A stretch of 46,071 nt of DNA from Coriobacteriia bacterium. GTDB lineage: Bacteria; Actinomycetota; Coriobacteriia; Anaerosomatales; PHET01. The notes beneath the pieces were generated by a model, which did no database searches, had not been told where the DNA came from, and saw nothing but the letters and a program-made list of their open reading frames with translations. The DNA is taken from the NCBI GenBank assembly GCA_034370385.1, contig JAXMKZ010000056.1:1-46071 (forward strand). The letters are read 5' to 3'. This document shows positions 1,689-19,277 of the stretch, one piece after another (position 1 is the stretch's first letter; each line of letters opens with the position of its first letter). The position numbers and the translations under genes are program-made.

Positions 1689-3524
1689 ATGAAGTCCACG
1701 TCCAGAAGCCGGCAAGGCTCGGCGCCCGAAGCGCATCGTCCGGCGCATGGTCCGAGCGGGTCTGAGCACGCTCCCCACGATCGACCCCTCTCGGCGTTGC
1801 CAGCCACTCTGGGGCGCGGGCGCCGCTGGCTGCCGGGCATCGAGACGCTTCTGACCTACCGTCGCGAGTATCTGCCGGGTGACGTCTCGGCCGGGTTCGT
1901 GCTCGTTGCCCTGATGGTGCCGGTGGGGCTGGCCTACGCGCAGGTTGCAGGGTTGCCGCCGATCTACGGCCTCTACGCGTCGCTCGTGCCGTTGATCGCC
2001 TACTGGCTCACCGGCCCCTCGCCCGTGCTTGTCTACGGCCCTGACTCGTCGATCGCGCCGCTTGTGGCAGTGGCCGTGCTCCCGCTTGCGGCCGGAGACA
2101 CGGCGACGGCGGTAGCGACGGCAGGGCTGCTGGCGGTGATGGTGGGGGCGATGAGCTTGGCCGCCGGTGCGCTTCGGCTGGGCCGGCTCACGGACCTGAT
2201 CTCGCGCCCGATTCGTTACGGCTACCTGAACGGCATCGCTATCGTCGTCATCGTGAGCCAGCTTCCACGGCTGTTGGGCTTCTCCGTCGATGGTGACGCG
2301 ATCTGGGAGCGGGCGGGAGCCATCGTCGCGGGGTTTGCGCAGACCAACGTTTGGGCGCTCGCAACAGGGTTGGGCGCCCTCGCCGTGATTGCCGGGTTCG
2401 ACCGACTTGGACCGCGCTTCCCGGGCATGCTCGTGGGCGTGGTGGCGTCGATTGCCGCGTCGGTGGCCCTCGACCTGCCCGCGCACGGGGTCGCTGTCGT
2501 CGGCGCCATTCCTCAGGGACTTCCCGCGTTCACGTGGCCTGCGACGGTACCCCTCGACCGGACTATGTGGATGGCCGCGCTGGGCATCACGCTCGTGTCC
2601 ATCGCCGACACGAGCGTGCTGTCACGTTCGCTCGCCGTTCGGCGCCGCGAGGATATCGATCCCGGCCGCGAGATTCTCGCACTCGGCGTGGTGAACCTGG
2701 CGACCGGCTTGTTCTCGGGCTTCCCCGTCTCGTCCAGCTCCTCGCGCACGCCCGCGGCAGAGGCCTCAGGTGCTCGCACGCAGGTCGCGGGACTCGTAGC
2801 AGCTGCAGGCATCGCACTCGTGCTGGTCGTCGGAACCGGGCTCTTCGCGGAGTTGCCCCAGCCTGCGCTCGCCGCAGTGGTGATCGCGGCTGTCGGCAAG
2901 TTGTTCGGGCCCAAACAGCTACGCGTGTTGCTGCGCGCAGATCGCTCGGAGTTCTGGCTGGCGATCGCGGCACTTCTTGGCGTGGTGCTTCTGGGCGTGC
3001 TCGAGGGCATCGGCTTGGCGATTGCGCTTTCGATCCTGGACTTCGTGCGCCGCGGCTGGCAGCCGAGAACTGCCGTGCTGGGCCGCGTCGATCAGTTGAA
3101 GGGCTACCACGACACGCAGCGGCACCCGGAGGCCAATCTGGTCCCGGGGCTCGTGATCGTGCGCTTCGACGCCCCGCTGTTCTTTGCCAACGCGAACCTG
3201 TTTCGCGAGCGGGTGCGCGGCGCCATCGAGGACGCACCCTACGATGTGCGTCGTGTCATGATCGCCGCTGAGCCGATCACCGAGATCGACTCGACCGCAG
3301 CAGAGGTACTGTGCGAGATGGCCGACGAGCTCGGGGACGCCGGGGTGGAGTGGACGTTTGCCGAGATGAAAGGTCCGGTGCGCGACAAGCTGGACCGTTT
3401 CGGGCTGGTCGAGCGTATCGGGCGCGATCGGTTCTTCCCGACGGTTGGCTCGGGCGTCACAGACTATCTGCGCACACAAAATGTCGACTACTCCGATTGG
3501 GAGGACGACGAGTCCGGTGCGTGA
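1689..3524 (+). CDS. SulP/SLC26-family anion transporter with STAS domain
   Basis: 611 aa. An N-terminal cytosolic tail of about 55 residues leads into the SulP core, which opens with YLPGDVSAGFVLVALMVPVGLAYAQVAGLPPIYGLY split across the first helices, then GPDSSIAPLVAV and a long series of hydrophobic segments to about residue 450. The C-terminal ~130 residues are a STAS domain (VRFDAPLFFANANLFRERV, then EIDSTAAEVL, where the Ser-Thr pair sits at the site homologous to the anti-sigma-antagonist phosphorylation site). Members carry sulphate, bicarbonate or other anions; the substrate cannot be read from sequence. The gene is monocistronic between two hairpins. I see no clear ribosome site before the chosen ATG, so translation could begin slightly downstream. 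Confidence 0.93.
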   Translation: MKSTSRSRQGSAPEAHRPAHGPSGSEHAPHDRPLSALPATLGRGRRWLPGIETLLTYRREYLPGDVSAGFVLVALMVPVGLAYAQVAGLPPIYGLYASLVPLIAYWLTGPSPVLVYGPDSSIAPLVAVAVLPLAAGDTATAVATAGLLAVMVGAMSLAAGALRLGRLTDLISRPIRYGYLNGIAIVVIVSQLPRLLGFSVDGDAIWERAGAIVAGFAQTNVWALATGLGALAVIAGFDRLGPRFPGMLVGVVASIAASVALDLPAHGVAVVGAIPQGLPAFTWPATVPLDRTMWMAALGITLVSIADTSVLSRSLAVRRREDIDPGREILALGVVNLATGLFSGFPVSSSSSRTPAAEASGARTQVAGLVAAAGIALVLVVGTGLFAELPQPALAAVVIAAVGKLFGPKQLRVLLRADRSEFWLAIAALLGVVLLGVLEGIGLAIALSILDFVRRGWQPRTAVLGRVDQLKGYHDTQRHPEANLVPGLVIVRFDAPLFFANANLFRERVRGAIEDAPYDVRRVMIAAEPITEIDSTAAEVLCEMADELGDAGVEWTFAEMKGPVRDKLDRFGLVERIGRDRFFPTVGSGVTDYLRTQNVDYSDWEDDESGA

Positions 3525-3525
3525 G

Positions 3526-3567
3526 AAAGGCCGCCGTGTCCGGGCGATCCGGCGCACGACGGCCTTT
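3526..3567. terminator. Bidirectional terminator between SulP and FKBP genes
   Basis: AAAGGCCG at 3526-3533 pairs with CGGCCTTT at 3560-3567. The stem ends in T-rich sequence on the plus strand and A/T on the other side. It sits between the convergent SulP and FKBP stops and can serve both. Confidence 0.8.
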
Positions 3568-3587
3568 TGGCGGCGCGCTGCGATCCG

Positions 3588-4037
3588 CTACGGGAGGATG
3601 ATCCCCGAGGGTCCGGCGACGATCTCGACAAGCTCGATCTCGAACGTCAGCTGCTCGCCGGCAAGCGGGTGGTTGAAGTCGAGCGTGACCATCTCGTCGC
3701 CCACGTCCTTGATGATGGCCGCCATATGCGATCCGTCCGGGGCCTGCAGTTCAACGGTCCAGCCCACCTCAGGCACCTGGTCGCCGAAGGCCTCACGCGG
3801 GAACTCCTGAACAGCCTCCTCCGCGCGCTCGCCGTATGCGTTGTCGGGCTCGATGTTGACGGTGGCGCTGCCGCCGATTTCGAGGTCAGCAACCGCCTCG
3901 TCGAAGCCCGGTATCACCTGACCTGCGCCCACTTCGAACTCGAGGGGCTCGCGTCCGGCGCTCGAATCGAACTCCGAGCCGTCCGCCAGAGTGCCGCGGT
4001 AGTGAACGCGTACCGTGTCGCCGGGTTTGGGTGCCAT
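3588..4037 (-). CDS. FKBP-type peptidyl-prolyl isomerase, SlyD-like
   Basis: 149 aa from the ATG at 4037, chosen because AGGAGG lies at good distance before it; an in-frame start 51 bases further upstream has no such site. The chain has the SlyD layout: FKBP strands (GDTVRVHYRGTLADGSEFDSS, then EFEVGAGQVIPGFDEAV split over residues 1-65), an inserted chaperone flap (about 70-120, including NAYGERAEEAV and FPREAF), and the closing strands DFNHPLAGEQLTFEIELVEI. SlyD proteins isomerise Xaa-Pro bonds and bind unfolded chains in the cytosol. The His/Cys-rich nickel tail of E. coli SlyD is absent. The gene stands alone. Confidence 0.93.
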   Translation of the reverse strand: MAPKPGDTVRVHYRGTLADGSEFDSSAGREPLEFEVGAGQVIPGFDEAVADLEIGGSATVNIEPDNAYGERAEEAVQEFPREAFGDQVPEVGWTVELQAPDGSHMAAIIKDVGDEMVTLDFNHPLAGEQLTFEIELVEIVAGPSGIILP

Positions 4038-4129
4038 GGTTGAAGCCTCCTTCGGGCGGGGATGCCCGGTTTCGGGCTCGCTGGTCACTCTACCCGTTCA
4101 GGGCGTCCCGTGCTCGGCCTAGACACAGA

Positions 4130-4157
4130 TGAGGGAGCCCCGATCGGGGCTCCCTCA
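4130..4157 (-). terminator. Perfect 28-bp palindrome downstream of the HAMP sensor gene
   Basis: Two perfect 14-base arms centred between 4143 and 4144, with TGAGGGAGCCCC as the left start. It lies 23 bases past the stop of the sensor gene and is the natural end of the cytochrome operon. On the minus strand it is followed by TCTGTGT. Confidence 0.75.
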
Positions 4158-4180
4158 GACGGTGCTATCTTCGCAAGGTG

Positions 4181-5092
4181 CTACTTCATCAGGGACTTCA
4201 GGGTTCCGGCCATCAGATCCATGAACCGAGCGAAGAACTCCTCGAAGCGGCCGATCTCGTCGGTCGTCCCATCGGGCGTGAAGTGGGCGCCGAAGTCGCC
4301 TCCGGCGACGCGTACCGAGATGTCCTGGATGCTCGTCATCATGCGCTCGAGGCGCCTGAACACGAGAGCATTCAGCATGAGCGCGATCACGATCGTGCCG
4401 GCGAGCAGTCCGCCGATGATAACGGCTCCGGTGTTCACCATCGTCACGCGGGCGGAGTCAGCTTGGGGGCTGATGTCCTCTATTGCGTAGACGACGCCCA
4501 CCGGCTTACCCGAATCGTCATCCACCGGGAACACGACGTGTCCACGGCTCTTGTCGTCCTTGCTCCACCGCACGCCCCAGAAGTCGCCCTCACCGCCGAC
4601 CTCGCCGTGACACATCAGTGAACAGGCACCGTTCTCGACGCCGACGATCTTGCCGATCTCGGGAATCGTATCCGGGGAGGCCTGGAGCTGCATCTCTTCG
4701 GAGATCGCCCCATCGGTGGTCGCGATCAAGACGTACGTCTCGCGCTCGTCCCAGTCGTTTGCGAGGCCGGCCTCTTCGGCGGCCTTCGCGTACTCCTCTT
4801 GGTTGAGTAGGGTCTTGTCGAGCATTAGGCCGTACTCGGCGCCCGTGATCAGCTTCAGTGACTCTACGTGCTTCTGCGCGCCCTCACGCGTAGTGAGGGG
4901 CCCGAACTCGTCGGCCCCTATCTCGCTGACTACGTTCCAGGCGGACACGCCCAGCGTCGCTGACTTCTGCTCGGTGACGTCGAGGCCTCCCGAGTACGAC
5001 TCGTGCAGGTAGACCATCACTACCATCATCCCGATGAGGTTGACCGCGGCGACGCCGAGCAGAATCCTCGTTCTGATTGACCAGTTCTTCAT
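4181..5092 (-). CDS. Membrane sensor with an extracytoplasmic domain carrying CX3CH and a HAMP domain
   Basis: 303 aa. Helix 1 is at about residues 8-28. An outer domain (29-220) contains CSLMCH at 157-162, checked codon by codon: it is a CX3CH motif, one residue longer than canonical CXXCH. Helix 2 is at 222-245, then a HAMP domain (RRLERMMTSIQDISVRVAGG, with DEIGRFEEFF) to the C-terminus. There is no kinase, methyl-accepting or GGDEF output domain. Geobacter-type c-haem PAS/Cache sensors are the nearest known concept. GGGGGA precedes the ATG. It is the last gene of the cytochrome cluster, 93 bases after the nonahaem gene, so a role in sensing redox state or a respiratory ligand is plausible but inferred. 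Confidence 0.8.
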   Translation of the reverse strand: MKNWSIRTRILLGVAAVNLIGMMVVMVYLHESYSGGLDVTEQKSATLGVSAWNVVSEIGADEFGPLTTREGAQKHVESLKLITGAEYGLMLDKTLLNQEEYAKAAEEAGLANDWDERETYVLIATTDGAISEEMQLQASPDTIPEIGKIVGVENGACSLMCHGEVGGEGDFWGVRWSKDDKSRGHVVFPVDDDSGKPVGVVYAIEDISPQADSARVTMVNTGAVIIGGLLAGTIVIALMLNALVFRRLERMMTSIQDISVRVAGGDFGAHFTPDGTTDEIGRFEEFFARFMDLMAGTLKSLMK

Positions 5093-5185
5093 CGAATCCC
5101 CCTTCGCCCGACCAAGGTCGGCGCATCATCATGCTGCCACTCTACCCCATCGGCATATCGCTGCTGCATCTTCACTTCCTGCATT

Positions 5186-7201
5186 CTATCGGCGAACGGT
5201 CGTCACGTTGCTGCGTACGATGGCAAGCGGGCGCGGCGCCCAGCGTGCGCGGTAGCTTGTCGAGCGCACCGGCTTGACGGCGTATGCGAACGAACCACCG
5301 TCTCCGGCGGTCGTGGAGCCGACAACCGCCCACCTGCTCGTCCCTGCGGGTGCCGCCTCGATGGCGATGGTCTCGCCCTTGGCGCCCGAGCCGTCTCCGA
5401 ACTTGAGTGTACCGAAGACAAGCGAGGTTCTCCCGCCGCCCGCGTAGCCCGTCGATCCGAACGCGGTGAAGCGTGCGCCCACGCCCTTGGCGTACACGCT
5501 CGCCTTGGCAAGTCCTGCGGTCGCATACGGGTAGTTGTGGACGCCGTTGCTGCCGTCGCCCTTGACCAGAGATACATTCTTGTTCGCGGCGGACAGGAGC
5601 GTCTTGCCAGCGGTCGTCGAGGCGGCCCGGCGCTTCTTCGCAGCGGCGATGGCCGATTCAGCCCGGGCGACACGCGCCTCGGTAGCCTCCTGCCATGTAT
5701 CGATCTCTTCCTGCAGCTCCTCGAGCGTCTGGCCGTGATGGCACGGCGAACAGGAGTCCACATCCCCGGGCTCATCGAACTGATCTTCCCACTTCGCGGC
5801 GTCGCCGGGCATCATGATCTTGAGGCGGTGGCTTCGGTTACCTGCGGTGCGAGGCATGTGGCATTCGTAGCATTCGGCCCCCGGCATCCACTTGCCGGTA
5901 TCGCTGACGCCGAGCAGGCCCTTACCGCTTCGGATCTCCGCGGTGCCCTGAACGTGACACTTCATGCACAGCTCGTCCGCCTCGAGACGCAGTTTCGTGC
6001 TCGTGCCGGACTTCGGGTGAACTGCGTGGCATACGCCACACTCGATGTTGAGCGTGTCGCTTGCGATGCTGGAGCGGTGCAGCCCGATGTCGTTCGGTCC
6101 GTCGGCGCCGTATCCGATGCTCTGAAGGAACCCTTCGCCTGAGTGGCACGGCAGACACTCGTCTTGCAGGAAGGGTATGTAGAGCTGACCGTTCTGCGTC
6201 CGCAGCGAGTGCGAGTGCGCGGAGAGCTGCCACTCGTTGTACAGCCCGTCGCCGTGGCCGCCGGCTTTGAGATGCCCGGTGGGGAAGAAGGTCGGGTCAG
6301 TGGCGGGTATCGAAGGCTCGGGGTCCCCTAGCGACTTCTTGACCCACTGCGAGCCGAGGACCGTCCCGAAATCGGACAGCTTCTGATCGGGGGTGAACCC
6401 GTTGGGGCTCGACCACGATCCGTTCGTGGCGTTGCGCTGCTTCGACGTGAACTTCACGTGGCACTGGCCGCAGGTCTGGCTGCTGAGAGCTGTCGGGGTC
6501 CGCGAAACCGGCACGCCGGTGTTCCAGTGCTTGTCGCCGCCGTTCGCGGCGTGGCACGACTCGCAGCGGATGCTGTACTCGCTGAAGCTCGTGGGGGTGT
6601 CCGGCGCCATCTTGCTGCCGTTGGGCAGCGTGTAGCTTTGAGCCGCAGGGCGGTTCACGCCGGTGAAGTGGCACGGGCCGCAGTTCTGCAAGACCAGTCG
6701 CGGGCCAATGGCACCGGGGTTCCAGTAGCCCTCGTGCGACAGGTAGCGCCCGTTGAACAGGACGAGATCGTCCTTCGGCCCTGCCGTGGTGGGCTGGGTG
6801 TAGCCGGTAGAGAGCGTGTTGGCCTTGTCGTTACCGTACTTCGAGATGAAGCGCGTGGTATGCGAGTCATGTCCACCTAGCTGGTATGCGACGTCGGCGG
6901 GAGCGAACCGGAACGTGCCGCCAGCGAAGAGCGGCGAAGGCCACGCCGATGTGTTCGGGGCGGGGAAGATGCTGTCCACGCCGCCGATCTCGGCGACAGT
7001 CCGGACGTTGATGCTGTGCAGGGTGTTGACGTACGACCCCACCTGCCATCGCCCCGTGGTTCTGCCGTGACACTCGAGGCACTTCGAGCTCCCGGCGTAC
7101 CCGATGCCGTTCGCCGTCGCCCCGAGCGCCTGGGCGGGTGCGGCGACGGCGATGACCGCCAGCCCCAGCACGAGTCCCGTGACCCATCTGCTCCGTCTCA
7201 T
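5186..7201 (-). CDS. Secreted nonahaem c-type cytochrome, NrfA/hydroxylamine-oxidoreductase-like fold, with C-terminal beta domain
   Basis: 671 aa from the ATG at 7201 (GGAG just upstream; an in-frame start at 7246 would spoil the signal peptide). Residues 1-28 form a Sec signal peptide ending near AQALGA. Nine CXXCH motifs start at residues 41, 174, 213, 244, 349, 388, 412, 444 and 484. A helical stretch follows (490-575: TLEELQEEIDTWQEA, then GVHNYPYATAGLAKA), as in the C-terminal helices of the multihaem nitrite reductase/HAO superfamily. About 95 further residues (578-671) look like a beta-rich module of actinobacterial secreted proteins. All nine motifs are CXXCH, with no CXXCK catalytic haem of the classic NrfA, so it may be an electron carrier or an atypical reductase. 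It follows the giant cytochrome by 88 bases. Confidence 0.9.
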   Translation of the reverse strand: MRRSRWVTGLVLGLAVIAVAAPAQALGATANGIGYAGSSKCLECHGRTTGRWQVGSYVNTLHSINVRTVAEIGGVDSIFPAPNTSAWPSPLFAGGTFRFAPADVAYQLGGHDSHTTRFISKYGNDKANTLSTGYTQPTTAGPKDDLVLFNGRYLSHEGYWNPGAIGPRLVLQNCGPCHFTGVNRPAAQSYTLPNGSKMAPDTPTSFSEYSIRCESCHAANGGDKHWNTGVPVSRTPTALSSQTCGQCHVKFTSKQRNATNGSWSSPNGFTPDQKLSDFGTVLGSQWVKKSLGDPEPSIPATDPTFFPTGHLKAGGHGDGLYNEWQLSAHSHSLRTQNGQLYIPFLQDECLPCHSGEGFLQSIGYGADGPNDIGLHRSSIASDTLNIECGVCHAVHPKSGTSTKLRLEADELCMKCHVQGTAEIRSGKGLLGVSDTGKWMPGAECYECHMPRTAGNRSHRLKIMMPGDAAKWEDQFDEPGDVDSCSPCHHGQTLEELQEEIDTWQEATEARVARAESAIAAAKKRRAASTTAGKTLLSAANKNVSLVKGDGSNGVHNYPYATAGLAKASVYAKGVGARFTAFGSTGYAGGGRTSLVFGTLKFGDGSGAKGETIAIEAAPAGTSRWAVVGSTTAGDGGSFAYAVKPVRSTSYRARWAPRPLAIVRSNVTTVRR

Positions 7202-7289
7202 CTTGGCTCCTTCGTTCTCTCGTGCCCCTTGTAATCCCGCGGTCACTTCCTCGTGCAGCCAGACGCGGATACCGTGCCTGGCAGAGCTT

Positions 7290-10184
7290 CTAGGGCCAGT
7301 ACGTCGCCGTCGGCACGTCCGACGGCTCTGGGTGGTTGGTATCGGAGTGGTAGCCGTGGCAGCCTCCGGTCACGCAGCTCGCCTTCGTGAGGTCGGTAGG
7401 ACGGTCGTACGTGCGCAAGAGCACTCCCGCCAGTCCGTCGTGGTTTTTCGCGATGTATGGATAGGTATCGGCAGGTCTGTCCGGACTGCTGACCGTGCGC
7501 ACAAGAAGCCTCGGACTTAATGACGCGTGCGGTATGCGGATATGACAGTCGACGCACTTCTCGCCGTACCGCAGCGGGTGCCAGACCGGCGCACCGATGT
7601 GTTTGGCGTGCTGCGCATGGACGGGATTCCCCCCGGGATCGTCACTGCCCTCGACTGAGCCGAACGAGAGGCGGTGGCACTTCATGCAGATGACGCGGTC
7701 GGTTCCCGTGGCGGCGAACTGCGATTCAAGGCCCCGTGTCGGATTGGCGTACTGGGTCTGGCTGTACGCCGGGTCTATCCGGACCTTGACGGCGGACCCG
7801 TGCGGTCCCGTGGGCTCGACGTCGAACACATGGCAGTCGTCACACGCGATCTTCGCGTGGCGAATCTCATCCTCGGTTCGTAGCTCCTGACCGTTGATGG
7901 GTTTGAGCCACGCGGTGTCACCGGTGTTGGGGGGGAGCGCCCAGCGGTAGACAGTGCCGCGCGTGGAGTACTCCACCATGGGGAAGTTCTTGTCGGCGTT
8001 CGCGCCCACCGTCGCGGCAGCAACGACGTTGTGCCCGCCGCCGACCGGTGCGTTCAGAGCACCTCTCCATGCGGCGAATGGATTGGACCAGACGAAGCCG
8101 GCGGGGCGCGGGTCTTGCGTCGTGAAGCGCTTGTGGGGTGAAGCCGCGTGGCCGTTGCCGGGCGTGGCCGAACCGCTGTCGTGGCAGGAGATACAGCGCG
8201 TGTCGCGGCGGGCGATGGCGCTCTTCACCGCGTCGAGTCCCGCGTAGCGCCCGTTGCCGGGGTCGCGGCTGTCGGTGTGGCAGACCCGGCAGCTGGTGGC
8301 GCCGCCGCCGGCGATCGGTGCGCCGCTTGTGCCGGTGTGCGCAGTCACGAGGTCGGCGGAGTGGCAGCCGAAGCATCCGGTGTTCTCGCCGGCGGTGTAG
8401 GTGATGCCGTTGACCGTGCCGCTGCGGTTCGCGTTGTGGTCGGCGAAGTGCTGCGTGGATGTGTATCCGGTGTGACAGGGCTCAGCGTCCGGGCCCCCGC
8501 ACGAAAGGTTGGAGGGTCTGGTACCGGCGACGTGACAGCCGTCGATCTCGCACCCCCCGGTGTGGAGTTCGGCGAGGTCGTTGGAGACGTGACAGCCGGA
8601 TCGCACGCAGGAGCCCGGGTCGGGCTGGCCGGACGCGTTCATCTCCACGGCGTCATGCATGCCGGAAACACTCTTGTGGTTCGCAAACGACGAGTACCCT
8701 ACGTGGCATCCGAGATCTGAGTCATTGCCGCCGCAACTCAGGAGTCCGGAGCCGTTGATCGAACCACCGATGCCGTGACAGCCGGTGATCGTGCAGCCGA
8801 TCTCGGCGTGTAGCTCGCGCACATCAGTGGCCTCATGGCAGACGTCGCCGGAGCAGCTGTCGGCCGGCGTGCCGTCATCGTCGAGTGGCTGGCCCTCATG
8901 CGAGGAGTCGAGCGCTCCATGCGGAGCAGGAATGCCCGGTCGACCGTGGCAGTCGAGGCACGCGCCAGCCGTCGCACGTCGTGGCCAATCCGCAGCGACG
9001 GCCGCCGCTGTGACCCGGTTGTATCCGTGGCAGGCGCGGCAGACGTCGCCGCCGAGCGCCGAGCTGGGCCTGGAGTGCTCATCGGTCAGCTCGATCAGAT
9101 GGCAGCTGCCGCACGACGTGCTGACCGAGGTGAGAGGGTCGACAAGCTGAGCGAGCGCCAGCGCCAGTCCTGCGCGGTGCAAGCGGGCATCCTCGTCGTG
9201 GGAGTACTCGTCGGACTCGTAGGTGATGTGACACCCGTCGTCACCATCGCCGCACCGGTACTCCTCAGGTACGTGCGCTTGGGCCTTGAGGTTGTGACAG
9301 ATGGGTTCGTCGTCGTCACCCGCGCCGGAGCAGTCCTTGGGGCGGTCCGGATGAAGTGCGTGGAGATCGACCGACTGGTGGCACCCGGGGCCGGTCGACC
9401 CGCAGCCGGCGGCATCCGTCGCCTCCACGCTGGGCGCCAGCGATGCTGAGTGCATCGGCGAAGAGGATTCCTTCGCGTGGCACACCTCACAGGAGCGATC
9501 CTCCCAGTCGGCCAGTACCTGCTCGAGACCGCCGGAGCGCGCGTCGTTGTGGCACTCACCGCATCCGATGCTGTCGCCGTACGGGCTCCCCTTCGTCTCC
9601 GGTACCTTCTGATGAGACTTATAGAGGTCTCGATCGTGGCATGCTCGGCATTCGGCACCGGCCTTGCCGCGCTTCGTAGCCCTCATCACCACGGAGAAGT
9701 CAGTACCGATCGCCGTGTGCGTGGTCTCGCGGTAGTGACCGCGCGGGTAGGGATCGGTGATCCGCTCCTGGTCGCCCGCCTTCTCATCCGTGCCATCGTG
9801 GCATGACTGGCACTCATGCCCCTTGGAGCTGTGGCAGGGGATGCAGCCCACGCCCTCGTGCTCGTGACAGGTTCCGCACTCGGTGTCGGGGTGGTACGCG
9901 TTGAAGTCGGTGTACTCGGTCTCGTCGCCGTGACACCCTTCGCCGGAGTTGGTGCAGCCGCTGTCGCGAGACGCCTTGTAGTCGCTCGCCGTGGTGAAGG
10001 AATGCGCGGTGTCGGAGGGAGGATTCCAGGCCATGGTCATGGCGAGGAACGCGACCGCCCCCACAGAATAGAGCCCCACGCGCAGATTCTTTGCACGCGC
10101 GGCTGCGGCCCGTACTTTCGGGTCGGTGAGGGAGGCGAAGCTCGAAGCTTCGGAGAGGCGGTGCAAGTCGTCTTCGCGGGGCAC
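7290..10184 (-). CDS. Membrane-anchored giant multihaem cytochrome with 15 CXXCH and 11 wide CXnCH motifs
   Basis: 964 aa. The start is GTG at 10184, preceded by GAGGAG at seven bases. A cytosolic head of ~33 residues and one helix (35-52) anchor the chain. The rest is exported and rich in Cys and His. Canonical CXXCH motifs number 15 (first CGTCH at 103, last CVDCH at 877). Eleven further motifs are stretched: five CX4CH (444, 464, 526, 545, 937), three CX6CH (77, 261, 311), CX7CH (562), CX8CH (484) and CX10CH (285). The stretched loops are rich in Gly and Asp. Nine of them form three copies of a three-motif module. CX4CH haem sites are known from cytochromes c3, and CX15CH from MccA; a chain mixing lengths 4, 6, 7, 8 and 10 is unfamiliar to me. 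Likely role: electron transfer across the cell wall. Haem occupancy of the wide sites is unproven. Confidence 0.9.
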   Translation of the reverse strand: MPREDDLHRLSEASSFASLTDPKVRAAAARAKNLRVGLYSVGAVAFLAMTMAWNPPSDTAHSFTTASDYKASRDSGCTNSGEGCHGDETEYTDFNAYHPDTECGTCHEHEGVGCIPCHSSKGHECQSCHDGTDEKAGDQERITDPYPRGHYRETTHTAIGTDFSVVMRATKRGKAGAECRACHDRDLYKSHQKVPETKGSPYGDSIGCGECHNDARSGGLEQVLADWEDRSCEVCHAKESSSPMHSASLAPSVEATDAAGCGSTGPGCHQSVDLHALHPDRPKDCSGAGDDDEPICHNLKAQAHVPEEYRCGDGDDGCHITYESDEYSHDEDARLHRAGLALALAQLVDPLTSVSTSCGSCHLIELTDEHSRPSSALGGDVCRACHGYNRVTAAAVAADWPRRATAGACLDCHGRPGIPAPHGALDSSHEGQPLDDDGTPADSCSGDVCHEATDVRELHAEIGCTITGCHGIGGSINGSGLLSCGGNDSDLGCHVGYSSFANHKSVSGMHDAVEMNASGQPDPGSCVRSGCHVSNDLAELHTGGCEIDGCHVAGTRPSNLSCGGPDAEPCHTGYTSTQHFADHNANRSGTVNGITYTAGENTGCFGCHSADLVTAHTGTSGAPIAGGGATSCRVCHTDSRDPGNGRYAGLDAVKSAIARRDTRCISCHDSGSATPGNGHAASPHKRFTTQDPRPAGFVWSNPFAAWRGALNAPVGGGHNVVAAATVGANADKNFPMVEYSTRGTVYRWALPPNTGDTAWLKPINGQELRTEDEIRHAKIACDDCHVFDVEPTGPHGSAVKVRIDPAYSQTQYANPTRGLESQFAATGTDRVICMKCHRLSFGSVEGSDDPGGNPVHAQHAKHIGAPVWHPLRYGEKCVDCHIRIPHASLSPRLLVRTVSSPDRPADTYPYIAKNHDGLAGVLLRTYDRPTDLTKASCVTGGCHGYHSDTNHPEPSDVPTATYWP
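8436..8609 (-). repeat. Wide-motif module, copy 3 (residues 526-583 of the giant cytochrome)
   Basis: Order of elements: CX4CH (526), NDLAELH, CX4CH (545), then SCGG leading to CX7CH (562) and TGYTS. It matches copy 2 in every landmark, with shorter linkers. Confidence 0.8.
8655..8855 (-). repeat. Wide-motif module, copy 2 (residues 444-510)
   Basis: Order of elements: CX4CH (444), TDVRELH, CX4CH (464), then SCGG leading to CX8CH (484) and VGYSS. The shared frame D-x-x-x-L-H after motif one and C-G-G-x-D before motif three identifies the repeat. Confidence 0.8.
9195..9404 (-). repeat. Wide-motif module, copy 1 (residues 261-330)
   Basis: Order of elements: CX6CH (261), SVDLHALH, CX10CH (285), then CGDGDDGCH (CX6CH, 311) and ITYES. 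It is more diverged than copies 2 and 3 and has longer spacers inside the first two motifs. Confidence 0.7.
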
Positions 10185-10213
10185 GGAGAGACTCCTCGGT
10201 GGGGGTGTTGCGC

Positions 10214-10417
10214 CTAGCGGAGCTCGAGTCCGAAAACCTCGCTGGCCGCCTGTCGAAGGGCCTCTATCTTCTGCGGGTCATCCGGCTCGTCGGGGCCGAC
10301 AAGCGACACGAGGAAACCACAGCGCAGAGCAAGCTCTCCCCGTGACTTGAAGACATCCAGATTGTTGCTGTCGATGTGCCGCTGAATCTGCTGGCAGTGG
10401 TCGTACAGTTTTCCCAT
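10214..10417 (-). CDS. Conserved-looking small protein heading the cytochrome operon
   Basis: 67 aa, not a family I recognise. AGGAG stands seven bases before the ATG, and the stop is only 29 bases from the next start, so it is very likely cotranscribed with the giant cytochrome. There is no signal peptide or helix of membrane length, so it should be cytosolic. The sequence is mixed helical (YDHCQQIQRHIDSNNLDV, then IEALRQAASEVFGLEL) with two Cys separated by 25 residues. A role as accessory or regulatory protein is only a guess from position. Confidence 0.75.
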   Translation of the reverse strand: MGKLYDHCQQIQRHIDSNNLDVFKSRGELALRCGFLVSLVGPDEPDDPQKIEALRQAASEVFGLELR

Positions 10418-10569: not shown

Positions 10570-10785
10570 ATGGGGGATTCCTACGCGCCGATCAAGGGCA
10601 AGTGCACGTGGTGGCGGGAGATGCCGGTAGAAGAGGACGCGTGGGACACGCGGCTCAAAGAGCACGAGAAACGCGTTCAGTGTTCGTGCTTCATCGAGGG
10701 GACCGGCTGGACGTCCACGAGAGGGGATGTCCCGAGCGACTGCCCTGAGAATCGGCGCTGCAGGTACTACATCAAGCACATCTGA
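10570..10785 (+). CDS. Small cysteine-rich cytosolic protein
   Basis: 71 aa from the ATG at 10570, preceded by a GGCGGTGG stretch; the longer frame back to 10468 overlaps the presumed promoter zone and looks like noise. Five Cys occur in the order GKCTWW, QCSCF, DCPENRRC, ending YYIKHI, which could bind a metal. It lies divergent to the cytochrome operon, and ends 58 bases before the exporter start. No family recognised. Confidence 0.65.
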   Translation: MGDSYAPIKGKCTWWREMPVEEDAWDTRLKEHEKRVQCSCFIEGTGWTSTRGDVPSDCPENRRCRYYIKHI

Positions 10786-10843
10786 GCGGTGCGCTTGCAC
10801 GGCCCGCGTTGCGATACACGTCTTGAAGGAGTCAAAAACCTCC

Positions 10844-12562
10844 ATGCAACTGAGAGCTCTCCCGCACGGCCAGAAGATGGCGGTGTTCGGCGGCGTGCTG
10901 CTGGCGCTGCTTCTCGGTGCGCTCGATCAGACGATCGTCGGGCCCGCGATACCTCAGATCGTGCGCGAGCTGGGCGGCATGGAGATGCTGGCCTGGCTGT
11001 TCACGATCTACTCGCTGACATCAACGATCGCCGTGCCGCTCGTGGGCAAACTGTCCGACCTCTACGGGCGCAAGTGGTTCTACATCGGCGGCATCTCGCT
11101 GTTCATGGCGGGCTCGGTGGCGTGCGGGCTTGCCGGTACTGATGCCGTGAACCAGGTGCTTGTGCCGCTGGGCATCACGCCGATGATGCAGCTCATCATC
11201 GCACGGGGAATCCAGGGTCTGGGCGGCGGCGCGATGATGGCCAACGGCATGGCCGTCGTGGGCGACCTGTTCGAGCCTCGCGAGCGCGGCAAGTATCAGG
11301 GCTTCACGGGAGCGATCTTCGGCCTGGCCTCGGTCGTGGGCCCGGCAGTCGGCGGATGGATCACCGACGTGGCCACGTGGCGCTGGATCTTCCTCGTGAA
11401 CATCCCGCTCGGGCTGCTCGCCATAGGCGTGCTGTTGTTCTCGATGCCGCGACCCGTGCACGGGCAGCAGCATTCCATCGACTGGTGGGGAGCCATCGCG
11501 CTCGTCGTCGGCCTGGTGCCGCTGCTGCTCGCCTTGAACTGGGGTGGCGGGTACTACGAGTGGGTCTCTGCGGCCATCCTCGGGCTGTTTGCCGTGGCGG
11601 CCTTCGCTCTGATCGTGTTCGTGCAGATCGAACGCCGCGCATCCGAACCGATCCTCGACATGGTGCTGTTCAAGGACCGGGCGTTCTCCATGAGCATGCT
11701 GGCGCTGTTCTTCTCGGGCGTGGGCATGTTCGGATCGATCATGTTCTTGCCGCTGTTCATGCAGGTGGTTCAGGGTGCGAGCGCCGCATCTTCGGGGCAG
11801 CTGCTGATTCCCATGATGCTGTCCATGGTGGCCGGATCGATCGTGTGCGGACAGATCATCTCCCGGACGGGTCACTACAAGTGGCTCGGCGTGGGGGGCC
11901 TGACCGTGGCGACGGGCGGCATGCTCCTGCTCTCAGGCCTCGAGGTGGACACCACGCGAACGAGCTTGGTTCTTGCGATGATTCTCGTCGGAGCTGGAGT
12001 TGGCGTGACGATGCCGCTCTTCGCGATATCGCTGCAGTCGCAGTTCCAGACCCGGATAGGCGAAGTCACCGCCGCAGTCCAGTTCTTCCGCTCGATCGGC
12101 GGCACCGTCGGTGTCGCGCTTCTCGGTGGGGTCATGAACGCCGCCTTCGCGACGAACCTCGAGGCGCTGGTTGCGCGGGATGCGGTGAAGTTCGGTGCCC
12201 TGACGCCCGCCCTCACCAAGCTTGCGGCAGAGCCCGCGAAGCTGCTGAACGCCGGTGCCGTCGAGACGATCTCGCAGCAGATGCCGGCGGGTACGGAGCG
12301 CATCATGGCCGTCTTCCTCGTCGATCTGCAGCTGGCTTTGTCTGACGCGATCGCGCAGACGTTCCTCATCGGGGCCGGCATGATGCTCATCTCCGTGGTG
12401 GCCATGGTGTTCCTGCGCGAGGTGCCCTTGGCCGCCAAGGTGAAGGCGCCGCTGTCGGGCGAGGAGATCGGTGGCGAGCTGATCGTCTCGGAGAGCGTGC
12501 AACCCGCGGAGCATGAGCCGGTACTCGTGGAAGTCGAAGATGACAGCGACGTCGAGCGCTGA
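10844..12562 (+). CDS. MFS drug exporter, DHA2 (EmrB/QacA, 14-helix) family
   Basis: 572 aa. The start at 10844 follows a GGAG 12 bases upstream and fits the family N-terminus. The DHA2 hallmark LDQTIVGPAIPQIVREL is in helix 1, motif A appears as GKLSDLYGRKWF, and GLGGGAMMANGMAVVGDLF with ERGKYQG marks the helix 4-5 region. About 14 hydrophobic segments can be counted. Members expel amphiphilic drugs or other small molecules by proton antiport. The C-terminal ~50 residues are acidic and cytosolic. The last 23 bases overlap the glycosylase gene, which suggests cotranscription. Confidence 0.93.
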   Translation: MQLRALPHGQKMAVFGGVLLALLLGALDQTIVGPAIPQIVRELGGMEMLAWLFTIYSLTSTIAVPLVGKLSDLYGRKWFYIGGISLFMAGSVACGLAGTDAVNQVLVPLGITPMMQLIIARGIQGLGGGAMMANGMAVVGDLFEPRERGKYQGFTGAIFGLASVVGPAVGGWITDVATWRWIFLVNIPLGLLAIGVLLFSMPRPVHGQQHSIDWWGAIALVVGLVPLLLALNWGGGYYEWVSAAILGLFAVAAFALIVFVQIERRASEPILDMVLFKDRAFSMSMLALFFSGVGMFGSIMFLPLFMQVVQGASAASSGQLLIPMMLSMVAGSIVCGQIISRTGHYKWLGVGGLTVATGGMLLLSGLEVDTTRTSLVLAMILVGAGVGVTMPLFAISLQSQFQTRIGEVTAAVQFFRSIGGTVGVALLGGVMNAAFATNLEALVARDAVKFGALTPALTKLAAEPAKLLNAGAVETISQQMPAGTERIMAVFLVDLQLALSDAIAQTFLIGAGMMLISVVAMVFLREVPLAAKVKAPLSGEEIGGELIVSESVQPAEHEPVLVEVEDDSDVER

Positions 12563-13406
12563 TCCTCGCCGGCTGGCGGACTTCGTCGAACTGGTCGTTG
12601 CCAGCGGGCGCGAACACTATCGCGACTTCGCTTGGCGGCACACGAGCGATCCCTACCAGGTGCTGGTGAGTGAGGTCATGCTCCAGCAGACACAGGCAGC
12701 GCGCGTGGTGCGCTTCTACGAAGAGTGGCTCGGTGCGTTCCCCTCACTAGAGGCCCTGGCCGCCGCACCGCTTGAGGCGGTGCTGCGGGCCTGGCAGGGG
12801 CTCGGCTACAACCGCCGCGCGGTTGCGCTCAAGCGGCTGGCCGATCAGGTCGTGGATGACCGCGTCGCACGCGGTTGGACAGGGGCGGCCGAACTTCCCG
12901 CTGACGAGGAGGCGCTGCGCGCGCTGCCCGGCGTCGGCCCCGCCACAGCAGCCGGGGTGCTCGCCTTCGCGTACGACCGCCACGCCACGTACCTTGAGAC
13001 GAACGTGCGCGCCGTCGTGCTGCACGAGCTGCTGGCGGACCGCGACGGGGTGCCTGATCGCGAGATCAGTGCGCTGGTGTCGCAGGCCGCGCAGGCGGCA
13101 GAAGCGGCCGGAATCACCGCGCGCACGTGGAACTACGCGCTGCTCGACCACGGTGCACACCTGAAACGCACGCTGCCGAACCCGTCGCGGCGCAGCGCGC
13201 ACCACGCGCGACAGTCACCGTTTCAGGGCTCCCGGCGACAGAAGCGCGCGCGGCTGCTGAAGGCGGTCCTGGCGCAGCCCGGAGGCGATGAAGCGCAGTT
13301 GGCCGAGGAGACAGGCGTGAGCGTGGACGAGACGCGAGAACTGCTCACGGCCCTTGAGGCGGATGGCTTCTTGTGCCGACGCAGCGACGGCTGGAGCGTC
13401 GCCTGA
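12540..13406 (+). CDS. MutY-like HhH-GPD DNA glycosylase lacking the iron-sulphur cluster
   Basis: 288 aa. The start ATG at 12540 lies inside the exporter's end. The HhH-GPD core is clear: SEVMLQQTQAARVV with the catalytic-type Glu, the LPGVGPATAAGVLAFAY hairpin, and YLETNVRAVVLHELL. Where MutY has the catalytic Asp (LDGNV in E. coli), this chain has Glu (LETNV). The four Cys that hold the [4Fe-4S] cluster in MutY and endonuclease III are absent; the only Cys is near the C-terminus. There is no MutT-like C-terminal domain. Instead a short winged-helix-like tail (AQLAEETGVSVDETRELLTA) ends the protein. Cluster-free MutY relatives are known from anaerobes. Substrate (A opposite 8-oxoG) is inferred from the family. 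Confidence 0.85.
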   Translation: MTATSSADPRRLADFVELVVASGREHYRDFAWRHTSDPYQVLVSEVMLQQTQAARVVRFYEEWLGAFPSLEALAAAPLEAVLRAWQGLGYNRRAVALKRLADQVVDDRVARGWTGAAELPADEEALRALPGVGPATAAGVLAFAYDRHATYLETNVRAVVLHELLADRDGVPDREISALVSQAAQAAEAAGITARTWNYALLDHGAHLKRTLPNPSRRSAHHARQSPFQGSRRQKRARLLKAVLAQPGGDEAQLAEETGVSVDETRELLTALEADGFLCRRSDGWSVA

Positions 13407-13409
13407 CGG

Positions 13410-14582
13410 CTACTCGGCGTACTGCTCCTCGACGAACCGTGCGGCCGCTTCGGGCCCACGGACGTGGCACAGCTCGCAGTACTCGGCTTGGTGGCAGTCG
13501 AAGCACGGGTTCGCGCCCTCGGCGATCACGGTCTGGCGATGGTTCTTCATCCACGGGGTGCCGGGCGTGCTGCTCGGGTGGTGGCAGGAGTTGCAGAAGT
13601 TGGTTCCTGCGGCCTCTGCGGCGTTGCGAGCGTGGCACGTGCCACACGCCTTCGAGTTCCTGATGCCCTCGCGGCCATGGTTCTTCGTGAAGCCCTCCGG
13701 GTGCGGCATGGGCACCTGATGGCAGTCGCCGCAAAATGAGGTCTTGTGACAGGTGTAGCACGAGTTGATCTCAGAAGAGGGAGTGAGCACCGGTCCCTTG
13801 GCATGTGCCGGATCCAGCGGCTCATGCTCGCTGTTGTACTGGGCAGCGGCCGCTACGGACGCGGACTCCTCTTTGGCGCTCTCAGCGTGGAGCGTCGACG
13901 ACCCGTACCGCGTGTACCAACCCTTCAGGCGGTGGCTTGCGGGTTCGAGCGGGAAGCCTTTCGGGTGGCATGCCTCACAGGCGCCCGGCGCCTTCGGGTC
14001 GCTCTCGAGGCTGTGGCAGCGGAAGCACGCATCCATCGTCATCCAGTTGTCGTGCTTTCGGGTGCCTAAGACGAGGTCGATATCCTCCTCGGGGTGAGCC
14101 ACACGGTTGTGACAGGTGGCGCAGGTCACCGCGTTCTCGGTGTGCATGGTGTGGTCGATGATGATGCCATCGGAGGGCGTGGGCTTGCGCGTCGCAAGGT
14201 TGTGACACTGCGTGCACTGCTCGTCGGGGGTCTCCATCGCTACGTGGCTTGCCGGGTTCACGGGGATCTCGTAGTTGTTGAAGATGGTCGCGGGAAGGTC
14301 CGGAAGCACCTTGATCTTCATCAGCGTCATGGTGAGAGGATCGGCGTTGACCGGCTCGTGGCACGCGATACAGGAGACGTTCGTGTGCGTCGAGGCCCGG
14401 TAGGCGAGCGTGTTGTCGTCGTGCACCTTGTGACACGGCGTGGTGCAGAACCACTCGTACGAAGTCCCGATGATCCCGCCGGCCCAGAAGACCACGAAGC
14501 CCATGACCGCCACGGTCAGCCAGACGATGATGCGGGGTCTCTTGCGGGGGTCTCTGAACGCAGCGATCGGCTTGAACTGCAT
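13410..14582 (-). CDS. NapC/NrfH-type membrane multihaem cytochrome with 12 haem-like motifs
   Basis: 390 aa. One helix (19-40) anchors the N-terminus as in the NapC/NirT quinol dehydrogenases, followed by WFCTTPCHKVH and the STHTNVSCIACHEPV stretch typical of that family. Eleven CXXCH motifs start at residues 71, 123, 154, 186, 202, 275, 284, 313, 330, 360 and 369. The first motif (46) is CX3CH, verified by codons. NapC has four haems and NrfH four, so this is a long relative with an extra C-terminal haem array. It should take electrons from menaquinol and hand them to the cytochromes encoded 3-9 kb away; that link is inference. AAAGG lies before the ATG. The stop is three bases from the convergent glycosylase stop. 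Confidence 0.88.
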   Translation of the reverse strand: MQFKPIAAFRDPRKRPRIIVWLTVAVMGFVVFWAGGIIGTSYEWFCTTPCHKVHDDNTLAYRASTHTNVSCIACHEPVNADPLTMTLMKIKVLPDLPATIFNNYEIPVNPASHVAMETPDEQCTQCHNLATRKPTPSDGIIIDHTMHTENAVTCATCHNRVAHPEEDIDLVLGTRKHDNWMTMDACFRCHSLESDPKAPGACEACHPKGFPLEPASHRLKGWYTRYGSSTLHAESAKEESASVAAAAQYNSEHEPLDPAHAKGPVLTPSSEINSCYTCHKTSFCGDCHQVPMPHPEGFTKNHGREGIRNSKACGTCHARNAAEAAGTNFCNSCHHPSSTPGTPWMKNHRQTVIAEGANPCFDCHQAEYCELCHVRGPEAAARFVEEQYAE

Positions 14583-14611
14583 CTGTCGTGCCTTTCGGAC
14601 GCGCGGAGCAT

Positions 14612-14631
14612 CTGTGGGTTTGGCACCACAG
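14612..14631. promoter_or_regulatory. Inverted repeat upstream of the NapC-type gene
   Basis: CTGTGG at 14612-14617 and CCACAG at 14626-14631 are separated by eight bases. The shape resembles the TGTG/CACA palindromes of the CRP/FNR superfamily. It lies 30 bases before the NapC-type start and 38 past the larC stop, so it could be an operator or a weak larC terminator. Confidence 0.3.
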
Positions 14632-14668
14632 TATGCACCATAAGTGACTCTCGATTGCGACGCCGGAA

Positions 14669-15898
14669 TCAGGCGCCGGAGGCGCCGCCAGCAGGCTCGC
14701 CATCGCTTTGCACGTCCAGGGCGTCGTGGGCTGCGTTGGACAGCTCGCGCTCCATCTGGTCGAAGCTGCGGCCGGTGGCGCGGGCGAGGCGCGTGACGTC
14801 ATCGGCTTCCGGGCGAAGGCGACCGGCGCCGGACTTCACTCGGATGGGGCCATGAGCGGTCTCGACTTCGATCACCGTGCGCTCAACCGTGCTGCGAGTC
14901 AGTTCGAGCCGTCGCACACCCAGGGTTCCGGTCAGCGCGTGGATCGCTTCGGCGAGGCGGTCGGCATCGTCCCCACGGCAGAGCACTGACAGCACAACTC
15001 CCAGCCGCTGCTTCTTCATGGTGGCGCCCGAAGTCCAGACGTCGAGAGCCCCTGACCGGGCAAGCTCCACGGCAGCGTGGGCGACCGCTTCGGGACTGAG
15101 GTGGTCGAGGTTACTCTCGAGCAGGACGACGGACTCGACGCCGTGGCCCGACGATGCCCGCATGGCATCACCGATGATCAGGCGTGCGATGTTGGGCGCC
15201 TCGGCCAATTCACGCGAGCCGGCGCCATGACCGGTAGCGCGCGGTACCAGGGGAGGCAGCGGGCCGAAGACATCGGCAAGGACGGCCACGAGAGCGGCCC
15301 CGGTAGGAGTGGTGAGCTCACCGGTCGAGGGGCCCGGCACTACCGGAACACCCTCCAGCAGGAGCGCGGTGGCCGGTGCGGGAATCGGCAGAATACCGTG
15401 CGCGGTGTGGACGGTTCCTGAGCCGACGGCGACCGGGGACACGACCAGGCGCTCGATCGCGAGCCGCTCGAGGCCGAGTGCCACGCCCACGACGTCGACG
15501 ATCGAATCGATGGCTCCGACTTCGTGGAAGTGGACATCGTCGGGTGCCACGCCGTGAACTCGGCCTTCTGCCTGGGCGAGCCTCTCGAAGACGGCCAGTG
15601 CGCGCTGGCGGGCACGTTCGGGCACGGCAGCCTCTGCGAGCAGCTCTCGGATGTCGCTCCACGTGCGGTGGGCGGCATCACCGGACGCCTCGACCGAGAC
15701 AGTCACGCCCTCGACGCCTCGGCGGCTTGCTCGTCCGATGCTGATGGCTATCTCGGGCGCCATGCTTGCCACCGCAGCTGCTAGATCGTCCACGGTGAAG
15801 GCCGGCGATGATGCGTCGGTGTGGGCACCGATGTCGAGCAGCGCGCCGAGGAACTTGTCGCCCGATACGCCCGTCGATGCGTCGAGATGGGCTATCAC
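14669..15898 (-). CDS. larC: Nickel-pincer cofactor nickel insertase LarC
   Basis: 409 aa. The start is GTG at 15898, overlapping the larB stop as GTGA; a longer reading frame upstream runs antiparallel to sense and is not part of the gene. N-terminal HLDASTGVSGDKFLGALLDIG matches the LarC opening. VHFHEVGAIDSIVDVVG and IPAPATALLLEGVPV with TPTGAALV are family hallmarks. The C-terminal half carries LLESNLDHLSPEAV and TMKKQRLGVVLSVLC. LarC inserts Ni into pyridinium bisthiocarboxylic acid mononucleotide using CTP. In Lactobacillus the gene is split and read by frameshifting; here it is one frame. larA and larE are not in the window. Confidence 0.93.
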   Translation of the reverse strand: MIAHLDASTGVSGDKFLGALLDIGAHTDASSPAFTVDDLAAAVASMAPEIAISIGRASRRGVEGVTVSVEASGDAAHRTWSDIRELLAEAAVPERARQRALAVFERLAQAEGRVHGVAPDDVHFHEVGAIDSIVDVVGVALGLERLAIERLVVSPVAVGSGTVHTAHGILPIPAPATALLLEGVPVVPGPSTGELTTPTGAALVAVLADVFGPLPPLVPRATGHGAGSRELAEAPNIARLIIGDAMRASSGHGVESVVLLESNLDHLSPEAVAHAAVELARSGALDVWTSGATMKKQRLGVVLSVLCRGDDADRLAEAIHALTGTLGVRRLELTRSTVERTVIEVETAHGPIRVKSGAGRLRPEADDVTRLARATGRSFDQMERELSNAAHDALDVQSDGEPAGGASGA

Positions 15899-16710
15899 GG
15901 CGCCGCCTCTTCGGTATCGGGATTCGCCGCCATGAGTTCCGCCCAACCGGGTCGGTTGATGCGCGTCGCCAGCACCGCGGCACCGAATCCGTTGTCTATG
16001 TTGACGACGCCGATGCCACCCGCGCACGAGTTGAGCATGGTGAGCAGCGCGGAGACGCCACCGAAGTTCGCGCCGTAGCCGACGCTTGTCGGGACGGCCA
16101 CCACCGGGACGGCGACCAGGCCGGCGATGAGCGATGGCAGCGCACCCTCCATGCCCGCGACGGCGATGACGACGCGGGCGTCCCGGAGCAGGTCGATGTG
16201 CGCGAGCGCTCGGTGCACGCCCGCGACCCCGACGTCGTAGAGGCGCGTGACGCGGCTGCCCATGACCTCGGCGGTGACCGCGGCCTCCTCCGCGACGGGC
16301 GTGTCCGCGGTTCCCGCGCTGGCAACCACGATGTGGCCCATGGGCGTGAGTTCGCGGCGACGATCGACGAGGACCATGCGGGGCTGTTCGAGCCACTGCA
16401 TGTCCGGGCACGCGTGGGAGAGGGCTTCTGCATGTGCTGCGGAGGCCCGGGTGCCCAGCACCACATCGGAGCGCTCGAGCAGTGCGCACGCTATCGATGC
16501 CACCTGGTCGGGCGTCTTGCGCTCGCAGAAGATGACTTCGGGGAAGCCGCACCGATCGGTACGGTGGTGATCGACGCGCGCCTCCACCGCACCGGTGCCA
16601 CCGGCGACCTCGGAGAAGTAGAGCTCATCGACGCGCGCTGCAGCGTCCTCGGGACGGGTGGATCCGGTGGCTACGGATTTCAGGAGTCTCAGCAGGTGAT
16701 CGGATTCCAT
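15895..16710 (-). CDS. larB: Nickel-pincer cofactor biosynthesis protein LarB
   Basis: 271 aa from the ATG at 16710, preceded by GGAG; longer starts add a segment with no family resemblance. The N-terminal ~90 residues (HLLRLLKSVATGSTRPEDAA) lead to the PurE-like core: VVASAGTADTPVAEEAAVTAEVMG split over 150-180, RLYDVGVAGVHRAL, VAGMEGALPSLIAGLV, and VPTSVGYGANFGGVSALLTML. LarB carboxylates and hydrolyses nicotinic acid adenine dinucleotide in the first step of the cofactor of lactate racemase. It is translationally coupled to larC. Confidence 0.93.
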   Translation of the reverse strand: MESDHLLRLLKSVATGSTRPEDAAARVDELYFSEVAGGTGAVEARVDHHRTDRCGFPEVIFCERKTPDQVASIACALLERSDVVLGTRASAAHAEALSHACPDMQWLEQPRMVLVDRRRELTPMGHIVVASAGTADTPVAEEAAVTAEVMGSRVTRLYDVGVAGVHRALAHIDLLRDARVVIAVAGMEGALPSLIAGLVAVPVVAVPTSVGYGANFGGVSALLTMLNSCAGGIGVVNIDNGFGAAVLATRINRPGWAELMAANPDTEEAAP

Positions 16711-16775
16711 CGGGGCTCCGTGACGACAGGGCAGCCGCATAGGCTGCCGCGTGCGGGGCGGGTCTGAGCGTTCGG

Positions 16776-16781
16776 TATACT
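16776..16781 (+). promoter_or_regulatory. Possible -10 box (TATACT) for the 6-TM GGDEF gene
   Basis: TATACT in the divergent larB/GGDEF spacer. I see no convincing -35 element at the right distance. A transcript would begin near 16788, which is itself an ATG in frame with the gene, so a leaderless longer form is possible. Confidence 0.4.
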
Positions 16782-16838
16782 TGTACCATGACGCCGTGGT
16801 CCTCAAGCTCACGGCGTGTCATTTCGGCGGGGAGCACC

Positions 16839-18431: not shown

Positions 18432-18436
18432 TCTCG

Positions 18437-19267
18437 ATGGTCAAGTACGCCTTTCTTGGTCCTGCGGGCACCTTCACCGAGGAGGCGCTGCTCTCGCTTG
18501 GCGTGCCTGACGTGGAGCCGGTGCCGTGCGTTTCCCTAGAGGAAGTGTTTGAGGCCGTCGCACGGGGTCAGGCTGACGCGGGTGTGGTGCCCATAGAGAA
18601 CTCGGTGGAGGGCAGCGTGAACGCGACGCTCGACTCCCTGGCGTTCGATACCCAGTTGGAGATCCAGTCAGAGTTGGTGCTCGACATCCATCACGCCCTG
18701 ATCACGGCGCCCGGTGTAGATCTTGCGGCTGTTGCGACGGTGGTCTCCCACCCGCAGGCCACGGGGCAGTGCCGGCGCTGGCTTGCCCGCAACCTTCCCG
18801 GCCGGACGGTCGTGGCCGCCAACTCGACAGCGGAGGCCGTGCAGAGGGCGGTGGGCGACCCGACGGTTGCCGCGGTGGGAACCCGGTTGGCGGCCGACCT
18901 TCACGGCGGCGAAGTGCGCGAGCCTGCGATCGAGGACTACGCCGGCAACCAGACGAGATTCGTGGTCATCGGGCGCGGCCTCAGGGAGCGTACGGGAGAC
19001 GACAAGACCTCGCTCGCGCTCTTTCTCAAGGCGGACAAGGCCGGCGCGCTGCTGATGATCCTGTCGGAGTTCGCTTACGCTGAGATCAGTCTGACGAAGA
19101 TCCAGTCGCGCCCGACGAAGCGCCAGCTGGGCGACTACATGTTCTTCGTCGACTTCCACGGGCATGTCGAGGATGCGCACGTCCGTACCGCGCTCGACTG
19201 CCTACGGCTCAAGTTGCGCGAGGTGAAGGTGCTCGGCAGCTACCCGTGCGCAGCGAGCCAGGTCTGA
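18437..19267 (+). CDS. pheA: Prephenate dehydratase with ACT domain
   Basis: 276 aa. ATG at 18437 has AGGAG ten bases before it; GTG at 18428 would sit on top of that site. Catalytic-domain hallmarks are FLGPAGTFTEEAL, VPIENSVEGSVNATLD, VVSHPQATGQCRRWL and the NQTRFVVIGR motif with the essential TRF. The ACT domain follows at ~195-270 (SLALFLKADKAGALLMILS, then KIQSRPTKRQLGDYMFFVDF), the site where phenylalanine inhibits. The enzyme makes phenylpyruvate in phenylalanine synthesis. No chorismate mutase domain is fused. Cotranscription with a diguanylate cyclase is unusual but the spacing supports it. Confidence 0.96.
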   Translation: MVKYAFLGPAGTFTEEALLSLGVPDVEPVPCVSLEEVFEAVARGQADAGVVPIENSVEGSVNATLDSLAFDTQLEIQSELVLDIHHALITAPGVDLAAVATVVSHPQATGQCRRWLARNLPGRTVVAANSTAEAVQRAVGDPTVAAVGTRLAADLHGGEVREPAIEDYAGNQTRFVVIGRGLRERTGDDKTSLALFLKADKAGALLMILSEFAYAEISLTKIQSRPTKRQLGDYMFFVDFHGHVEDAHVRTALDCLRLKLREVKVLGSYPCAASQV

Positions 19268-19277
19268 GAAGCCCGGC

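Follow-up and report, generated by a model that had tools for sequence, protein, structure and literature searches.

A gene in the genome of a Coriobacteriia bacterium encodes a multihaem cytochrome in which many of the C-Xn-CH sites hold more than two residues between their cysteines. The question raised by this locus is whether such wide sites carry haem, as CXXCH sites do, and what a chain built from both would do for the cell. The window analyzed here is the whole stretch of 46,071 nucleotides that contains this gene, and its features are collected in Table 1.

The cytochrome frame begins with a GTG start at 10184, with GAGGAG ahead of it. Taking every CH with the nearest Cys before it, we find that all 52 Cys of the protein belong to one of 26 C-Xn-CH pairs with none to spare, and that the alternation of C and CH is unbroken across all 26 pairs; perfect alternation among 26 CH and 26 other Cys has a probability of 2e-15 by chance. 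The spacing is n = 2 at 15 sites, n = 4 at five, n = 6 at three, and n = 7, 8 and 10 at one each, so that direct recounting gives exactly the tally of the preliminary description, 26 sites comprising 15 CXXCH and 11 wide ones. In 5000 shuffles of the whole protein, C-x(3-10)-CH appeared 1.0 times on average and at most 6 times, compared with 11 observed, and 20000 shuffles preserving the CXXCH blocks and CH dipeptides gave a mean of 0.83 and a maximum of 5. The sequence has the features expected of a multihaem c-type cytochrome, with 15 CXXCH motifs, a hydrophobic segment near the N-terminus and available distal His; the protein has 37 further His, and over the first 20 sites, as far as residue 616, some 19 of these are invariant or almost invariant.

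Table 1. Features discussed in the text (positions in the window; residue numbers are those of the 26-site cytochrome; n is the number of residues between the two Cys of a site).
Feature	Position	Strand	Details
26-site multihaem c-type cytochrome	7290..10184	minus	964 aa, one open frame
Layout of the cytochrome			probable N-terminal membrane anchor (~34-52), WNPP, haem modules (mostly triplets), C-terminal part
Site 1, CX6CH (CTNSGEGCH)	9930..9956	minus	residues 77-85; C, C, H invariant in 16/16 rows
Wide triad M3: sites 8 (CX6CH), 9 (CX10CH), 10 (CX6CH)	9177..9404	minus	residues 261-336; conserved extra His 275, 278, 329, 336; site 10 n = 5/6/7 among homologues
Wide triad M5: sites 14 (CX4CH), 15 (CX4CH), 16 (CX8CH)	8655..8855	minus	residues 444-510; extra His 459, 503, 510; site 16 n = 8/9/10 among homologues
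Wide triad M6: sites 17 (CX4CH), 18 (CX4CH), 19 (CX7CH)	8436..8609	minus	residues 526-583; extra His 541, 579, 583; site 19 n = 7/8/9 among homologues
Site 26, C-terminal CX4CH (CVTGGCH)	7356..7376	minus	His in 4 of 8 aligned rows
67-aa ORF	10217..10417	minus	directly upstream of the cytochrome
9-CXXCH cytochrome (Pfam MtrC/MtrF II-IV, Cytochrome_C7)	5186..7246	minus	43 bases downstream of the cytochrome
303-aa membrane protein	4181..5092	minus	invariant CX3CH, weak HAMP-like C-terminal part
12-motif membrane cytochrome, NapC/NirT N-terminal domain	13410..14582	minus	~3 kb from the 26-site cytochrome

At least 17 other genomes of the same Coriobacteriia order contain a close relative of this cytochrome or part of one. 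In an alignment of 16 sequences from 14 genera and 11 families of this one order, which covers the N-terminal half, every sequence that aligns at a given site from 1 to 16 keeps both Cys and the His there, and this includes wide sites 1, 8-10 and 14-16. The N-terminal spacing series, 6-2-2-2-2-2-2-6-10-(5/6/7)-2-2-2, varies in these sequences only in the length of site 10. The preliminary description had held that homologues lacking Cys or His at the wide sites would speak against haem there, and none of the aligned homologues lacks either at sites 1, 8-10 and 14-16. Loop residues and loop lengths vary (sites 10, 16 and 19) while Cys, Cys and His stay fixed. The preliminary description had suggested looking for homologues with the same spacings, and a relative at 66% identity in genome G001 has an identical list of 26 spacings. 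Further along the chain the family is more variable: triads of the form 4-4-(7 to 10) are present in 1 to 6 copies per homologue, differing between species, some homologues have an inserted block (6-2-5, 2-2-2), and sites 17-19 are missing from some because the number of triads differs. Site 26 is the least conserved wide site, with the His in 4 of 8 aligned rows. The earlier proposal that the wide sites attach haem is thus well supported by the invariant Cys/Cys/His in homologues, a support that bears on attachment and not on stoichiometry.

The arrangement of the wide sites points in the same direction. Across the family, 66 wide triads were compared, and all 66 retain three CXnCH sets. Their spacings are 4-4-9 (17 triads), 4-4-8 (12), 6-2-5 (10), 6-10-6 (seven), 6-10-7 (six), 4-5-8 (five), 4-4-10 and 6-10-5 (three each), 4-4-7 (two) and 8-2-8 (one). 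The loops of all these triads hold two His in total. There is about one extra His per motif, usually three or more per triad, and the commonest layout, in 26 of the 66, places one past the first site, none past the second and two past the third; most of the remaining triads have one or two His beyond this layout. The canonical triad of sites 11-13 shares the 1-0-2 pattern (H370; H422 and H429), and the middle site of equivalent modules may be CX2CH, CX4CH, CX5CH or CX10CH. In profile comparisons, canonical triads matched one another with 96-98% probability and wide triads with 82-99.6%, and wide and canonical modules were linked at 92% (M4-M5), 91% (M6-M7) and 89% (M5-M7). With the motif letters masked, M5-M6 remained at 97% and M4-M5 at 75%, all other module pairs falling to 40% or less; M4-M5 was the only wide and canonical pair aligned over the full triad length. 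Judged from sequence, the wide sites and the canonical ones appear to be variants of a single structural element. Because they do, and because about one extra His accompanies each motif, haem c is much the best reading of the wide sites, and the same two observations argue against disulphides or another metal.

It could be supposed instead that haem is confined to the 15 CXXCH sites, with the wide Cys pairs serving as structural disulphides within loops and the His behind them being incidental. The motif that the maturation systems normally act on is CXXCH, and Cys pairs outside the cytoplasm often form disulphides, but a disulphide has no need of the His behind the second Cys, whose invariance at sites 1, 8-10 and 14-16, together with the extra His retained in the wide triads and the occurrence of CXXCH or CX4CH, CX5CH or CX10CH at the same module position according to the copy, makes this explanation unlikely. 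Less probable still is a set of non-haem metal centres (Fe, Zn or Cu) at the wide sites, with Cys, Cys and His as ligands in Gly/Asp loops; non-haem metal sites had also been considered in the preliminary description. The loops of the window protein are indeed rich in both residues (Gly 21 of 63, Asp 11 of 63), and Gly enrichment extends to the family as a whole (34%). Asp is unremarkable family-wide at 7.7%, however, so that the description of the loops as Asp-rich holds for the window protein only, and this lack of conserved Asp led us to reject the metal-loop idea; moreover, loop length is free and related modules swap canonical and wide sites. AlphaFold2 models of the full protein (18 rows) and of the double wide triad (21 rows) were both unusable, with pLDDT of 35.1 and 36.5.

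Haem attachment at widened motifs has precedents. In OmcZ, the nanowire of Geobacter sulfurreducens, a solved structure places haem 1 at a motif with a 14-residue loop (PMC9473688, PMC11208441). OmcZ is likewise multihaem and extracellular, but it has one wide site out of eight, of another length (the maximum is n = 10 in the window protein), and it forms filaments. No sequence relation to OmcZ was found, a PDB sequence search with the window protein giving no match; the N-terminal profile gave weak NrfA matches on a canonical stretch (E 4e-4), and the wide profile gave antibody chains only, which we treat as noise. The sulphite reductases MccA and SirA have an atypical wide haem site (CX15CH, CX12NKGCH) served by a dedicated lyase (PMC6976685), but only one each, and motifs of the CX12-15CH type are absent from the window protein, which has no n above 10. 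In MmcA, mass spectrometry located haem on CX3CH and CX4CH (PMC11024163). The Pcc outer-membrane cytochromes share atypical motifs with the window protein, CX3-15CH having been reported in them, although the authors leave haem binding at CX>4CH undecided (PMC4245776); the Pcc proteins differ in being part of a Gram-negative porin complex, and no porin was found among the neighbours scanned in a scan that covered part of the window ORFs. Giant ANME cytochromes have several modified motifs per chain and a CcmF paralogue in an adjoining gene (PMC9012536), and large ANME and Desulfuromonas cytochromes reach 86 motifs (PMC9012536; PMC12133095). The likeness here lies in very large multihaem chains; the ANME proteins, in contrast, contain S-layer or other domains, with no such Pfam match in the window protein. 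Its sole Pfam match at E ≤0.01 is the three-haem family PF14522 (Cytochrome_C7), on three stretches, scoring 26.3 bits compared with a curated cut-off of 24.8; the best stretch is residues 173-236, which holds canonical sites, and 15 of 18 family members have matches. PF09698, the Geobacter CxxxxCH...CXXCH family, did not match.

Wide motifs are therefore known, and it is their number, variety, repeated-module construction and, as sampled, restriction to one lineage that differ here. The mixture of spacings had been called unfamiliar, which does not hold for wide motifs as such, given the published single wide and several CX3-15CH motifs (PMC4245776, PMC9012536, PMC9473688), and does hold for the repeated wide three-haem module, of which we found no published account. 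A profile of the N-terminal 390 residues matched within this order alone: of 298 genomes in the class sample, 18 gave a match, two of them a distant one only, and in the phylum sample the window's own genome was the sole match (1 of 396). A single-protein scan of the contig collection gave no matches and a profile scan gave 12 loci; phyla beyond Actinomycetota, covered by the contig-collection scan only, yielded none. As far as sampled, the family appears restricted to this lineage.

The neighbourhood of the cytochrome is conserved as well. A relative of the 67-aa ORF, which has no match in Pfam, adjoins the cytochrome at 15 further loci, two of which have it downstream, and relatives of the 303-aa membrane protein lie downstream of it at 14 other loci. 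The CX3CH of the latter sits between membrane segments, and this protein is possibly a haem sensor. The 12-motif NapC-type protein, a relative of which is present in G001, is a candidate quinol-side partner. In the cytochrome itself, the hydrophobic segment at ~34-52 and the WNPP that follows are conserved in nearly all homologues, and because of these the protein is probably anchored in the membrane with its haem part outside.

We give a probability of roughly 0.78 to the reading in which the 26-site cytochrome is membrane-anchored and extracytoplasmic, bears covalently bound bis-His haem at all or nearly all of its 26 sites, is built mainly from triads and probably serves as a wire across the cell wall. 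Some triads are canonical CXXCH, and in others a Gly-rich loop of 4-10 residues separates the two Cys; this wide loop would protrude from the haem site, with little constraint on its length. Quinol-oxidising membrane cytochromes, such as the NapC-type protein, would pass respiratory electrons to the chain, which would conduct them across the Gram-positive wall to surface cytochromes and extracellular acceptors. The number of sites, their invariance, the kinship of the modules, the anchor and the conserved locus are visible in the sequences, whereas haem occupancy, bis-His ligation, the role as a wire and the acceptor are inferred. The neighbouring genes and knowledge of the lineage suggest this as the most likely role; cultured members of Anaerosomatales/OPB41, probably the order concerned, include an obligate Fe(III) reducer and have 17-18 multihaem cytochromes (PMC9686372). 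With the same haem sites, the protein might instead store electrons as a capacitor, or act as a terminal reductase on the surface. The many haems per chain would suit such a role, as would the range of 1 to 6 wide 4-4-n triads between species and a terminal partner that is not conserved, since relatives of the 9-CXXCH cytochrome occur at the locus only in G001, G005 and G027 (four loci with the window). The conserved N-terminal anchor with WNPP, the NapC-type cytochrome nearby in the window and the spread of motifs along the entire chain, one per ~35 residues, favor the wire, and we consider the store or reductase doubtful.

In the literature found, haem binding at n >4 is settled only for single sites. 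The present family offers dozens of natural n = 4-10 sites whose CXXCH equivalents occur in the same chain, and the spacing tolerance of haem lyases is therefore directly testable. It is probable that in this one bacterial order stretched motifs make up a three-haem cassette that is in routine use and can be duplicated (n = 4-8 at the first site, 2-10 at the middle one and 5-10 at the third), in chains of about 26 to more than 100 sites, that nearly any spacing of up to 10 is accepted for haem attachment, and that as many as two thirds of the haems escape a CXXCH count. Cytochrome surveys rely on CXXCH, or on n up to 4 or 5 (PMC7399161, PMC12545173); the homologue in G060 would score 10 haems by its CXXCH, compared with 32 sites in all. 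The family also draws attention to an electron-transfer locus, as yet unstudied, of actinobacterial lineages that have subsurface Fe(III) reducers among their members.

Genes for haem attachment are present in the genome. Contig C4 encodes CcmE, CcmF and a CcmC-type protein, and contig C19 has two ResB/CcsA pairs, so that, as read from the genes, maturation systems I and II are each present in part. The preliminary description had proposed to look for dedicated lyases; none was found beside the cytochrome, and counting ResB genes in relatives is uninformative because most genomes have one.

Giant multihaem frames were observed elsewhere. In the window's own genome, C19 carries three giant multihaem frames at 1813-10272, 10638-20708 and 34201-43551, of 2820, 3357 and 3117 aa with 67, 82 and 80 CXnCH (40, 47 and 53 of these being CXXCH), and the first two match the window protein. 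In G026, a 4305-aa frame reaching the contig end (C40, 8677-21591) has 216 Cys and 108 CXnCH, compared with 86 in the largest published case found (PMC12133095, PMC9012536); 68 of the 108 are CXXCH, and two others have n = 13 and n = 18. ResB/CcsA, the system II haem lyase, lies a few kb to ~12 kb from giant cytochromes in several genera (C19 at 21443-23616 and 54018-56236; also G026:C40, G016:C5, G024:C112, G006:C22 and G001:C26) and is, by analogy with CcmF2 in ANME, a candidate dedicated lyase. A frame of more than 4200 aa on contig C59 of the window's genome (~152157-164900) has what look, by eye, like RCC1-type repeats, and these are fused to a multihaem region in which 25 CXnCH occur.

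Maturation of OmcZ uses a subtilase-type protease. Two subtilase-family proteases are encoded in the window (22263-24839 and 39604-43320, both plus strand), with no link to the cytochrome shown, and a sortase domain fused to DUF11 repeats is encoded at 16-1611 on the plus strand.
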